A stretch of 64,000 nucleotides of DNA, taken from assembly GCF_003096555.1 (NCBI RefSeq), contig NZ_QEKM01000001.1:62001-126000 (forward strand). Reading direction: 5' to 3'. The DNA is from Simplicispira sp. 125. Its GTDB lineage: Bacteria > Pseudomonadota > Gammaproteobacteria > Burkholderiales > Burkholderiaceae_C. The notes beneath the pieces are model-generated. The model saw only the letters and a list, made by a program, of their open reading frames with translations, did not search any database and was not told the origin of the DNA. Positions 15,293-31,808 of the stretch are shown here, piece by piece. Both the position numbers and the translations under genes were made by a program. The first letter of the stretch is position 1. Each line of letters starts with the position of its first letter.

Positions 15293-16705
15293 TTAGCCCG
15301 CCGGGGGATCGGGCCAGGGCCGCTGGGCGCTGCGCAGGTGCTCGAAGGCCCGGGCCAGGCGCAGCACGCCCAGGTCGTCAAAACGCTGTCCGGCGATTTG
15401 CAGGCCTATGGGCAGACCGCTGGCGGTGTAGCCGCAGTTCACCGAGGCAGCGGGCTGCTCGGACATGTTGTACGGCACCGTAAAACCAATGTGCTCCAGC
15501 GGGCGCAGCGGGTCGTTGGTGGGCGAGGGCAGCTCGGCGGCAAAGGCGGGCATGGGTGCCACGGGGGAAATCACATAGTCGAACGCAGCGCAGGCGCGCA
15601 CCGTGGCCACGCGCGTGGCGTGGAACTGCTGGTTGGCGTGGAACACGGCGGTGCCCGGCATATCGGCAACGCTGTCGGCCCAGGCGCGGATGAAGGGCAG
15701 CACCTGGGCTTTGCGTTCGGCAGGCAGGCTGGCCATGTCCAGGTGTGACCGCATGCGCCAGAAGTGGTCCATGCCGTCGAGCATGGTTTGTGTCATGAAA
15801 GGCGGCATGGGAGCCACCTGGGCGCCCGCGTCTTCGAGAAGGGCGGCGGCATGTTCCACGGCGGCGCGCACTTCGGGCTCCACGGCCAGGCCGCATCCGG
15901 CATCGAGCAATAGGCCAATGCGCAAGCCGCGCACATGCTCGGGCCCCCGCTCGAAATCCTGCCAGTCCAATGCCTGCGGCGGCAGCGCCATGCAGTCGCG
16001 CGCATCGGGCTGGCTGAGCACCTGCATCATGAGTGCGGCATCGTGCACGCTGCGCGTCATGGGGCCGGCCGCCCGCCCGGTGTAGGGCGGGTCGATGGGA
16101 ATGCGGCCCAGGCTGGGTTTGAGCGTGAAGATGCCGCACCAGGCCGCGGGCAGGCGCAGCGATCCGCCAATGTCGGTACCCACATGCAGCGGGCCATAGC
16201 CCGCGGCTGCGGCTGCGCCAGCCCCGGCGCTCGATCCGCCTGGCCCCTTGTCCAGGTTCCAGGGGTTGCGCGCCAGCGCATGAAAACTCGACAGGCCCGA
16301 CGACAGCATGCCGTAGTCCGGCATGGTGGTTTTGGCCACCAGCACCGCCCCGGCCTCGCGCAGGCGGGCTGCAGGGGGGGCATCGGCGGGGGCGGGTACC
16401 AGATCGACGGCGGCCGTGCCCAAGGGAGTGGGGTCGCCGCAGGTGGCAATGTTGTCCTTGAGCGTACAGGGCACGCCATCGAGCAGGCCTTGGGGCGCAC
16501 CGCGCAGCCAGCGGGCTTCGGAGGCACGTGCCTGGGCCAGTGCGGCTTCGGGGCGCAGCAGCCAGGTGGCGTGCAGGTGCGGTTCCCAGCGATCGATGCG
16601 ATCGAGCACGGCCTGCACCACTTCGACGGGCGAGAGCGTACGCTGGCGATAGGCCTGGAGCAGGGCGTGGGCGGGCAGTTCGTGCAGGGCAGTGGGAGCT
16701 TGCAT
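15293..16705 (-). CDS. Amidase-signature family amidase
   Basis: 470 residues from the ATG at 16705; a longer frame runs to 16930 but crosses the ferredoxin start. The amidase-signature triad is visible: Lys83 in CTLKDNIAT, Ser158 in GPGGSSAG and Ser182 in TDIGGSLRLPA, with the usual 24-residue spacing between the serines. The family hydrolyses amides and includes GatA and catabolic amidases. The missing GatB/GatC neighbours and the divergent C-terminal half argue against GatA. Substrate unknown. It is transcribed divergently from the ferredoxin gene. Confidence 0.88.
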   Translation of the reverse strand: MQAPTALHELPAHALLQAYRQRTLSPVEVVQAVLDRIDRWEPHLHATWLLRPEAALAQARASEARWLRGAPQGLLDGVPCTLKDNIATCGDPTPLGTAAVDLVPAPADAPPAARLREAGAVLVAKTTMPDYGMLSSGLSSFHALARNPWNLDKGPGGSSAGAGAAAAAGYGPLHVGTDIGGSLRLPAAWCGIFTLKPSLGRIPIDPPYTGRAAGPMTRSVHDAALMMQVLSQPDARDCMALPPQALDWQDFERGPEHVRGLRIGLLLDAGCGLAVEPEVRAAVEHAAALLEDAGAQVAPMPPFMTQTMLDGMDHFWRMRSHLDMASLPAERKAQVLPFIRAWADSVADMPGTAVFHANQQFHATRVATVRACAAFDYVISPVAPMPAFAAELPSPTNDPLRPLEHIGFTVPYNMSEQPAASVNCGYTASGLPIGLQIAGQRFDDLGVLRLARAFEHLRSAQRPWPDPPAG

Positions 16706-16790
16706 CGGTGGCTTTCTGCGGTGTAGAGCCGCTGCAGCATAGCGGCAAACCACCCTACTGGTGCTGGTGGCTCCAGCGCACGCAGGATAA

Positions 16791-17117
<327 letters not shown>

Positions 17118-17119
17118 TT

Positions 17120-17182
17120 TTTGATTAAATCGGGCTCTAACGCCCTATTCTCGGGCGCTATCAGCTATTGAATAGATAGTAA
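17120..17182. repeat. Stem-loop repeat family, copy 3 (ferredoxin-pth)
   Basis: TTGATTAAATCGGGCTCTAA, then a CGCCC/GGGCG stem around TATTCTC, then CTATCAGCTATTGAATAG. It fills the gap between the convergent ferredoxin and pth genes and could act as a bidirectional terminator. The stem differs in sequence from the other copies but keeps its pairing. Confidence 0.7.
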
Positions 17183-17794
17183 TCAGACAATATGCTCCGG
17201 CCGTGGCGGCTTGGGGCGCGGTGGCTTGGTGGTGTGCACCAGCAGCGTGGCCTTGTCCATGTCACCCGCCAGCAGGGCGGGCCAGGCCTTGAGGCTGTGC
17301 GCAATGCTGTCTTCGATCAGTGTGCGTTGGTCGGGCGCGGGCTTTTTCAGTACCCAGTTCGCCACCTCGGCCTTGTCGCCGGGATGGCCAATGCCAATAC
17401 GCAGCCGCCAGTAATCCGCTGATCCCAGCTGTGCATGGATGTCGCGCAGCCCGTTGTGCCCGGCATGGCTGCCACCGCGTTTGAGCTTGGCCTGGCCGGG
17501 CGCGATGTCCAGTTCGTCGTGCACCACCAAAATCTCTTCGGGGGCAATCTTGAAGAACCGCGCCAGCGAGGCGACGGATTTGCCCGAGAGGTTCATGAAG
17601 GTCTGGGGTTCGAGCAGCCACACGGTGTGTCCCTGCACTACAGTGCGTGCGGCCAGGCCCCAGTAGCTGCGCTCGGGCTGCAGGTGCACCTTGAGTTCGC
17701 GCGCCAGCGCGTCGATCCACCAGAAACCGGCGTTGTGGCGGGTGGCTTCATACTCGGGCCCAGGGTTGCCCAAGCCTACAAACAGTTTGATCAT
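17183..17794 (-). CDS. pth: Peptidyl-tRNA hydrolase
   Basis: 203 residues. Pth releases tRNA from prematurely dropped peptidyl-tRNA in the cytosol. Active-site residues are present at their standard positions: Asn10 (GLGNPG), His20 (TRHNAGF), Asn68 (FMNLSG) and Asp93 (VVHDELD). The C-terminal end has a proline-rich tail ([11 protein letters not shown]) beyond the usual fold. The start at 17794 gives [12 protein letters not shown]. It lies downstream of rplY in the usual prs-rplY-pth order, but a hairpin separates it from rplY. Confidence 0.96.
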
Positions 17795-30436: not shown

Positions 30437-31441
30437 ATGCTGGATGACCGTGCCAAGTTGTTGCTCAAAGCGTTGGTAGAGCGCTATATCGAAGATGGAC
30501 AACCCGTCGGTTCGCGTACGCTTTCGCGTGCTTCGGGGCTTGAACTCTCTCCGGCGACTATCCGCAATGTCATGGCTGACCTGGAAGAGTTAGGGCTGAT
30601 TGCAAGTCCGCATACCTCTGCAGGACGCATACCGACTGCCAGAGGGTATCGACTGTTCGTGGACACTATGCTCACGGTGCAACGCGAACAAATCACCTCA
30701 CATGCATTGGCGCCTGAGCAGCCGCAGAAGGTGATCGCGAATGCAGCGCACATGCTCTCCAATTTGTCGCAGTTTGTGGGTGTGGTCATGGCGCCCCGCC
30801 GGTCTTCCGTGTTCCGGCATATCGAGTTCCTGCGCCTGTCCGAACGGCGGTTTCTGGTCATCATTGTCTCGCCCGATGGAGACGTGCAGAACCGGGTGAT
30901 CTTTTCCGAGACTGACTTTACGCAGACGCAATTGCTGGAAACCGCCAATTTTCTGAACGCTCACTATGCCGGGATGGCAATGGAGAAGGTTCGGGAGAGA
31001 ATAAAAACCGAAGTGGAGTCGCTGCAGGGCGAAATTGCAGCGCTGATGAAGGCCGCTGTCAACGTCAGTTCTGAGGCGCTCACGCAAGCCCAGGAAGAGG
31101 TGGTCATCTCCGGTGAGCGCAACCTGCTGGCTGTCAGTGATTTTTCGAAAGACATGGGTAATTTGCGTCGGGCTTTCGATCTGTTCGAACAAAAAACGCA
31201 GATCTTGCGCTTGCTTGATGTCTCCAGCCAGGCAGAAGGGGTGCGCATTTTCATCGGCGGCGAAAGCCAAGTGGTTCCTTTTGAGGAGCTCTCCGTGGTC
31301 AGTGCCCCTTACGAGGTGGATGGGCAGATCGTAGGCACCTTGGGTGTCATTGGTCCCATGCGCATGCCTTATGAAAAAATGATCCAGATCGTGGACATCA
31401 CGTCCAGGCTGGTCTCGAACGCGCTAAGTCACCACAAGTGA
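30437..31441 (+). CDS. hrcA: Heat-inducible transcription repressor HrcA
   Basis: 334 residues. HrcA represses class I heat-shock genes through CIRCE operators. The winged-helix N-terminus ([17 protein letters not shown], then [20 protein letters not shown] and [18 protein letters not shown]) and the C-terminal [26 protein letters not shown] are diagnostic. No CIRCE element is visible in the 28-base gap before it, so autoregulation is not shown here. The gene is followed by the intron-containing tRNA. Confidence 0.96.
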
Positions 31442-31463
31442 ATCTACAATAGACAGCTTGAAT

Positions 31464-31789
31464 GGGCCGTTAGCTCAGTTGGTTAGAGCAGAGGACTCAT
31501 CGAAATGGTGACCACGGAAAGTAATTTCCGTCGGAAAACCGGGTGAACTCAAGGAAACCTAAAGCGCAAGCCAAGGCAATCTTGAGCCAAGCCCGCCGAA
31601 GGCAGGTCGAAAGACCGGTAGGCGGGAAGGTGCAGAGACTAGGACGTGAGGAGCCCATCCGATAAGCGTCCCCCGAGCGCCCGGCACCCCAACAGTTCGG
31701 CTGTGGGTGATGACATAGTCCAAGGAGTGGGGAAACCCACGCAAACTTGAATCCTTTGGTCGTTGGTTCAAGTCCAACACGGCCTACCA
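31464..31789 (+). tRNA. tRNA-Ile (anticodon CAT), split by a group I intron
   Basis: The exons are 31464-31500 and 31750-31789. Acceptor GGGCCGT (31464-31470) pairs with ACGGCCT (31779-31785, one G-T wobble), then A and CCA. Joined, the anticodon stem GAGGA/TCCTT encloses CTCATAA, anticodon CAT. The T arm is GTTGG-TTCAAGT-CCAAC. The body matches the isoleucine-2 tRNA that is modified to lysidine at C34 to read AUA, rather than elongator or initiator methionine tRNA. A -10-like TACAAT (31445-31450) lies upstream. The tRNA is functional only after splicing. Confidence 0.9.
31501..31749 (+). ncRNA. Group I self-splicing intron in the anticodon loop
   Basis: 249 nt, directly after the CAT anticodon. 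The 5' exon CAU can pair with GUG (31508-31510), putting a U-G wobble at the splice site, and the intron ends in G (31749). Helices: P2 ACGGAAA/TTTCCGT (31514-31531), P3 GGGTG (31541-31545) with CACCC (31685-31689), P4 CTCAAG/CTTGAG (31548-31553, 31581-31586), P6 CCCGCC/GGCGGG with a GGTC-GAAA-GACC tip, P7 GACTA/TAGTC (31637-31641, 31716-31720), P9 GTGGG-GAAA-CCCAC. An extra arm GGACG/CGTCC lies between P7 and P3. No endonuclease gene is inside. The Azoarcus tRNA-Ile(CAU) intron is the known parallel. Confidence 0.9.
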
Positions 31790-31808
31790 TTCAAAATTTT
31801 CGGTGCAC

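Follow-up and report, generated by a model that had tools for sequence, protein, structure and literature searches.

The occurrence of group I introns in the tRNA-Ile2 genes of bacteria such as the one studied here is already known. In the excerpts of the tRNAscan-SE 2.0 paper (PMC8450103), group I introns are reported from this tRNA gene in the related hosts Acidovorax and Burkholderia, in one sentence that gives no subgroup, exact site or lineage; all three are assigned below for an intron of Simplicispira sp. 125, whose very lineage that report is expected to include. The intron of the Azoarcus BH72 pre-tRNA-Ile belongs to subgroup IC3 (PMC3984707, PMC4498298, both in excerpt), and the td intron (IA2) is described as resembling the Azoarcus and Synechococcus ribozymes, except that in td a P7.1/7.2 extension separates P7 from P3 (PMC4498298). 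The Twort orf142 intron is assigned to IA2, and tRNA-Arg(UCU) and tRNA-Leu(UAA) of Thiomargarita and Beggiatoa are cut by putative group I introns, according to the excerpted text of PMC4853749. Subgroup IA2 itself is called heterogeneous (PMC11878797), more than 50% of viral group I introns have been classed as IA2, and transfer of introns between phages and hosts has been suggested (PMC11835236; both sources in excerpt). In the literature searched, which comprised excerpts and had most subscription journals outside it, we saw neither a description of a phage tRNA-Ile split by an intron nor any mention that the tRNA-Ile(CAU) site hosts two lineages.

A split tRNA-Ile2 gene behind hrcA

The window analyzed here is a stretch of 64,000 nucleotides from Simplicispira sp. 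125, and its features are given in Table 1. A first-pass annotation had proposed a group I intron in the anticodon loop of a tRNA-Ile(CAT), with tRNA halves 249 nt apart and an insert that starts after CAT, carries a GUG guide and ends in G. These boundaries were exact to the base, and both the U-G wobble at the 5' splice site and the terminal G were present in 25/25 introns at this site, that of the window included. The Rfam check suggested at the same time gave a match of RF00028 to positions 31475-31742 (82.2 bits with the cut-off at 50; E 2.3e-19), which was the single match at E <= 0.001 in the whole one-contig, 3.97-Mb genome. Together with a P3-P9 core that includes the P3/P7 pseudoknot, these properties place the intron in group I. 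When ARAGORN was run without introns, no tRNA was found at 31464-31789. When introns were allowed, the gene was called tRNA-Gln, a misnaming in which the splice boundary had slid; the other split-tRNA names given by this mode are therefore provisional. The intron lacks a homing nuclease: no endonuclease ORF lies inside its 249 nt, and stops occur in each of the three sense frames. An antisense ORF over the tRNA and intron (31497-31790) was taken as spurious. A scan around the TACAAT upstream of the gene yielded no full sigma-70 promoter match.

Table 1. Coordinates of the split tRNA gene, its intron, its flanks and the phage counterpart
Feature	Position	Strand	Basis or remark
hrcA, conserved upstream neighbour, reference for locus comparison	30437-31441	+	TIGR00331 312.4 bits
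TACAAT, possible -10 element, 14 nt 5' of tRNA	31445-31450	+	Suggested by sequence reading
Leader TTGAAT, complementary to ATTCAA 31789-31794 across tRNA ends	31458-31463	+	Edge common to related genomes
Whole split tRNA-Ile2(CAU) gene	31464-31789	+	Exact to base
tRNA-Ile2 5' exon, last bases anticodon C34 A35 U36	31464-31500	+	Matches uncut L049 gene
Group I intron, 249 nt, IA-type by anatomy	31501-31749	+	RF00028 82.2 bits; own model R1 213.1 bits
Internal guide GUGA, pairs exon UCAU 31497-31500 (P1), U36-G wobble at splice site	31508-31511	+	Paired 25/25, invariant
P2 hairpin, GUAA loop	31512-31534	+	Double-sided changes in 7/9 pairs
P3 5' strand, partner 31678-31684	31539-31545	+	99.4% of cells paired
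P4-P5 domain; P4 = 31548-31553/31581-31586	31548-31586	+	P4 100%, P5 90.7%, inner P5 70.0% paired
P6, P6a, P6b	31587-31630	+	P6a: double-sided changes in 5/6 pairs
P7 5' strand GACUA, partner UAGUC 31716-31720, guanosine-binding site	31637-31641	+	Invariant 25/25; RF00028 alignment
P7.1/P7.1a hairpin, 30 nt, between P7 and P3	31642-31671	+	92.7% (P7.1), 85.3% (P7.1a) paired
P3 3' strand	31678-31684	+	Covariation count
P8	31685-31709	+	Double-sided changes in 3/5 pairs
P7 3' strand	31716-31720	+	Covariation count
P9.0 (31722-31724/31746-31748), enclosing P9 hairpin 31727-31740, GAAA loop	31722-31748	+	Double-sided changes in P9 5/5, P9.0 3/3
Omega-G, final intron base	31749	+	G in 25/25
tRNA-Ile2 3' exon, A37 to encoded CCA	31750-31789	+	Sequence comparison
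A76 and trailer TTCAA, complementary to leader	31789-31794	+	Sequence reading
Phage split tRNA-Ile(CAU)	L157 1457-1767		Same gene in L158, L496, L497

Uncut forms of the gene were sought at the hrcA loci of relatives, of which the best 80 were kept (mostly Comamonadaceae and other Burkholderiales by name, with Acidovorax, Simplicispira and Giesbergeria as the nearest named loci); from these neighbours the genome appears to be one of the Comamonadaceae. The tRNA gene after hrcA was uncut, with a gap of 0, in 58/80 loci and carried an intron in four (L051, L055, L059 and L076); the 5' half was not found in 17, and one locus (L041) had a tRNA without its 3' half. In L049, both halves were letter for letter those of the window with nothing between them, and this uncut gene scored 72 bits with the tRNA model RF00005. 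Because the joined exons of the window occur uncut in relatives, the cut point is exact and lies after U36. Within the genus of the window, the gene was found in 16 of 26 genomes; it was uncut in 14 of those 16 and bore an intron in two (G000 and G015). At L041 (3054-3284), the 5' half stops directly after CAT and is followed by unrelated sequence and then by a complete CAT tRNA; an element perhaps cut the tRNA-Ile2 here and supplied a replacement.

Pairing was then counted over 25 distinct same-site introns (alignment A1, 25 of 27 introns after two exact copies were dropped, with the window's intron and two phage rows included) for P1-P9, the P3/P7 pseudoknot and the P7.1 hairpin. The helices read earlier from the window were borne out: 96.6% of 1698 cells were paired, and double-sided changes were found in 39/69 pairs, among them 4/5 pairs of P7.1. 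On each of five measures, the value for the alignment was equalled in none of 500 shuffles. When partners were slid by one column, pairing fell to 42-44%, a comparison biased towards the proposed structure, for which the window sequence itself had served as template. Both P1 and P7 are invariant and supply no covariation, and P5 (90.7%), the inner P5 stem (70.0%) and P7.1a (85.3%) were the weaker helices. P1 has four pairs, and P10 is weak, with just A38-U and U39-A possible by eye. As judged from this alignment, the intron structure is under selection.

The complementarity between leader and trailer across the tRNA ends was also compared. At least 6 consecutive pairs were found in 10/18 distinct IA rows (a count in which the tRNA ends were misplaced for L123 and the phage rows) versus 1/66 uncut genes, and by eye some partners change together, as might be expected if these ends generally served to keep the two halves of the tRNA in contact while splicing takes place. 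Such a general role is nevertheless unlikely, given that pairs numbered at most 3 in 23 tRNA-Ile genes with introns from the rest of the class and at most 4 in 11 further such genes of the order, and that one related flank is common to many of the 18 rows. The complementarity is more likely the edge of this family's cassette. At L123 (about 1790), the intron-bearing tRNA-Ile gene seemingly lacks an encoded CCA.

Two kinds of intron at one base

Introns at this site were of two kinds, a long kind of 231-279 nt (those of A1) with a hairpin between P7 and P3, and a short kind of 202-222 nt (11 introns) without it. The short kind includes L315, which we take to be the Azoarcus ribozyme. The insertion point after U36 is common to the window intron and the Azoarcus-type introns, and the P7.1 hairpin was absent from all 11 of the latter that were aligned. 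Two core models of our own were built, R1 from 17 long-kind cores (193 positions, 37 pairs) and R2 from 11 short-kind cores (142 positions, 20 pairs). The window intron (L001), itself used in building R1, scored 213.1 bits with R1 and 28.4 with R2; L315, itself used in building R2, scored 46.3 and 153.6 bits, respectively. For introns in neither model, the R1 and R2 scores were 97.9 and 29.2 bits for the psbA intron of phage S-PM2, and 68.7/35.7, 54.7/22.1 and 24.1/19.8 bits for those of Twort, where the differences mean less because R1 is the larger model. The Twort matches to R1, at 16651-17485, are presumably the orf142 introns. Some other tRNA-hosted introns scored nearly alike with both models (for example L326, 53.7/52.4; L341, 50.2/50.9; L342, 57.4/48.9 bits), so the two classes do not cover everything; these are perhaps a third kind of tRNA intron.

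The first-pass annotation had likened the intron to that of Azoarcus, and the parallel holds for the gene and the point after U36. Kinship is another matter, as indicated by P7.1, by the model scores, by trees and by approximately unbiased (AU) tests. In a tree built without the P7.1 columns from 66 of the 70 rows of alignment A5 (four copies were left out), the branch between the two kinds was supported at 100/99, with one IC3 row (L313) placed among the IA rows on a long branch. For the AU tests, 59 rows were used (L313, L161, L234, one of L225 and three of L499 were also left out as long or short). One clade of bacterial tRNA-Ile introns of both kinds was rejected at p 9.3e-5 with the P7.1 columns kept and, less strongly, at p 0.010 without them. 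It might be argued from this weaker rejection, from the shared gene and insertion point, and from the short, IC3-type introns that sit at the same site beside hrcA in L033 and L055, that the window intron is an Azoarcus-like IC3 intron which descends from one common tRNA-Ile(CAU) ancestor and gained its P7-P3 hairpin later. Against the window intron's scores of 213.1 bits with R1 and 28.4 with R2, the branch that persists without the hairpin columns, both AU results, and trees on which the nearest other hosts are tRNA-Thr and tRNA-Asn-like genes, such descent is very improbable. The lineage of the window intron is probably separate from that of the Azoarcus intron, despite the shared gene and site.

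With its 30-nt hairpin at 31642-31671, an R2 score of 28.4 bits and the AU rejection, the window intron falls outside IC3, and the position of P7.1 between P7 and P3 is that of subgroup IA. The T4 td intron, the record of which carries the note 'group 1A', matched neither R1 nor R2. Since td matched neither model and IA2 is heterogeneous (PMC11878797, in excerpt), 'IA-type' here rests on anatomy and on relative scores with our own models, and the label is kept at that level and nothing finer. A single clade for the bacterial IA tRNA-Ile introns, a group that was named after the first tree had been seen, gave AU p values of 0.024 with the P7.1 columns and 0.147 without them; in view of the latter value, IA introns may have arrived in tRNA-Ile only once.

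AUA decoding and a probable dependence on splicing

A search with the tRNA covariance model found 53 intact tRNA genes in the genome. As read by ARAGORN, two of these have a CAT anticodon, and none among the 53 is an Ile(TAT) tRNA. We take the two CAT genes to be the initiator and elongator tRNA-Met; ARAGORN labels even an uncut Ile2 gene tRNA-Met, and the Ile2 identity of the split gene was assigned from homology and by elimination. On this reading, the three CAT tRNAs normally expected are all present only if the split gene is counted. The suggestion that this is the sole AUA-reading tRNA stood up: no other was found among the intact tRNA genes of this one-contig, 100%-complete genome, and the recommended search for a second intact tRNA-Ile(CAT) returned none. 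A second split tRNA would evade such a search, yet there is only one group I match in the genome. TilS, which had been invoked as the modifying enzyme, is encoded, with a score over the cut-off, and ATA accounts for 9/172 Ile codons in seven neighbouring genes. A CAU anticodon in an Ile2-type body, an encoded TilS and no other AUA tRNA found are what a lysidine-bearing tRNA would show.

These combined data strongly suggest that the gene is the AUA decoder tRNA-Ile2(CAU), and very probably its transcript carries a phage-like IA-type group I ribozyme; it would be expected to be spliced and then modified by TilS. The anatomy, the covariation, the lack of another AUA tRNA in the search, the uncut alleles and the separate lineage (by scores and trees) are direct results of the comparison; in-cell splicing, its timing with respect to TilS and the way in which the intron is transferred are inferred. 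The guide GUGA would pair with UCAU across the anticodon to form P1, and guanosine bound at P7 would attack after U36. The freed U36 would in turn attack after the last intron G, the exons would join to give a normal tRNA, and TilS would then modify C34. In the precursor, the guide would occupy C34, and A37 belongs to the other exon; it is therefore a fair expectation that TilS must wait and would act only after splicing. That the intron is dead, the gene a pseudogene and AUA read otherwise, for example by misreading tRNA-Ile(GAU) or a missed tRNA, might be argued from the short P1 and weak P10, but is very unlikely, with both exons identical to an uncut gene, most varying helices kept by double-sided changes, and ATA codons persisting in a complete genome that has no other AUA candidate.

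Given that no other AUA tRNA was found and that TilS is present, dependence of the cell on splicing of tRNA-Ile2(CAU) is likely, and on genomic grounds the cell probably does so depend. AUA decoding thus seems to run through one self-splicing RNA, which would make splicing a testable essential function. Ordinary tRNA finding misses the split gene, both in the window and in four annotated phage records described below.

Spread among bacteria and phages

The distribution of the intron was assessed by DNA-similarity scans of the family, viruses and plasmids (with a query shifted by one base) and by model searches. In the family, 22 of 399 genomes had DNA similar to the intron, and in 19 of those, the window's genome included, this was a long-kind intron in tRNA-Ile(CAU); hrcA was present in 12/18 fetched long-kind loci other than the window's. 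In the order, 40/399 genomes matched the Rfam group I model, whatever the kind of intron, and ARAGORN in intron mode reported split tRNAs in 38/41 stretches given to it. In the class (Gammaproteobacteria in GTDB), R1 matched in 52/369 genomes, with 29 matches of at least 108 bits including the window's own. The 28 others comprised 23 tRNA-Ile(CAU) genes cut after U36 (the 3' boundary of L368 was misread in this set), 2 tRNA-Thr(UGU) genes and 3 unparsed (L345, L347 and L350), of which L345 and L347 are tRNA-Thr-like by eye. These four tRNA-Thr introns scored 165-174 bits with R1, and the tRNA-Ile introns 108-134 bits. Long-kind introns were also seen in tRNA-Leu(UAA), apparently after GGGAU at the stem-loop border (L137, L138 and L140, by eye), and in a gene read as tRNA-Asn(GUU) but called tRNA-Asp by ARAGORN (L304). 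In L337, L338 and L340, tRNA-Ile2-like genes have an intron seemingly, by eye, between U33 and C34.

To account for where the long kind is present, 12 changes were needed on an hrcA tree built quickly from 94 loci (with some genomes represented twice), and starred branches force at least 5 of these. Between L127 and L133, 70 noncoding upstream bases were 100% alike, the intron 93% and hrcA 80%. In L146 and L154, close uncut sisters of the window locus, the exons differ from those of the window and the leader is longer, which suggests that intron and tRNA gene were exchanged together. In this family, strains apparently pass the intron to one another along with the tRNA gene and a little flanking sequence. 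In plasmids, no place covered 80% of the query; the matches listed (20 of 88 records) were short and lay at the tRNA ends.

In four Klebsiella jumbo phage records (Alcyoneusvirus), a tRNA-Ile(CAU), identified as Ile2 by resemblance, is interrupted, at the base where the window gene is cut, by a related intron of 231 nt, which had 73.5% DNA identity over 37% of the query and in L157, itself used in building R1, scored 129.8 bits with that model. The split tRNA sits in a tRNA cluster with an HNH gene near; all four records annotate the flanking tRNAs, and the split tRNA and intron are absent from the annotation. In a fifth Klebsiella phage record, itself unannotated, an intron of 91% similarity follows CAT in a tRNA whose body is quite different (L510 271-575); closely related phages thus seem to harbour the intron in two different CAT tRNAs. 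Introns with DNA similarity were also present in Vibrio and Synechococcus phages, in terminase genes and in psbA. A scan of viral contigs gave at least 120 stretches, in 80 of which there were 95 R1 matches, some in protein genes, and ARAGORN names candidate split tRNAs among these stretches as well. A further scan of viral sequences, this time with the tRNA-Ile junction as target, yielded 120 stretches, and none of the 80 on which R1 was run matched. The wider lineage of the intron appears to be common to other anticodon loops and to phages.

Individual viral stretches showed further arrangements. In L199 (3685-5820), six R1 matches and a seventh similar core by eye lie within about 2.1 kb, all in apparently one protein gene. 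L205, a stretch of a 436-kb viral contig with 35 plain tRNA genes, has a tRNA-Thr-like gene split by an R1-type intron (1994-2158, 135.2 bits). In Vibrio phage R16F (L495 219-2126), four CDS are each named terminase large subunit, with R1 matches around them.

We tentatively propose, as a possibility that we rate somewhat below an even one, that the site after U36 of tRNA-Ile(CAU) has been invaded on two or more occasions, by group I lineages not related to one another. The window's lineage would be phage-type IA, mobile among anticodon loops (Ile, Thr, Asn-like and Leu) with its guide re-fitted each time, and travelling between bacteria as a split-tRNA cassette, with large phages that have intron-split tRNAs of their own as one vehicle. 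Two apparently unrelated ribozyme families at one tRNA base would offer a natural experiment from which the preference for that base might be explained.

Among the described systems, the Azoarcus intron shares with the window's the tRNA-Ile(CAU) gene, the cut after U36, the GUG guide and the group I core, but it has no P7-P3 hairpin and stands apart by model scores and trees. The T4 td intron has its P7.1/7.2 extension at the same place as the window's P7.1, yet matched neither model. The Twort and S-PM2 psbA introns resemble the window's in scoring higher with R1 than with R2, whereas these phage introns, like td, lie in protein genes, often with homing endonucleases. In Thiomargarita and Beggiatoa, bacterial tRNA genes are cut as in the window, but these are other tRNAs, and no type is assigned to the introns in the excerpted text (PMC4853749). 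The split tRNA of the Klebsiella jumbo phages shares both the tRNA and the site with the window, and differs in its 231-nt intron and in its setting, a cluster of phage tRNA genes that has an HNH gene close by.
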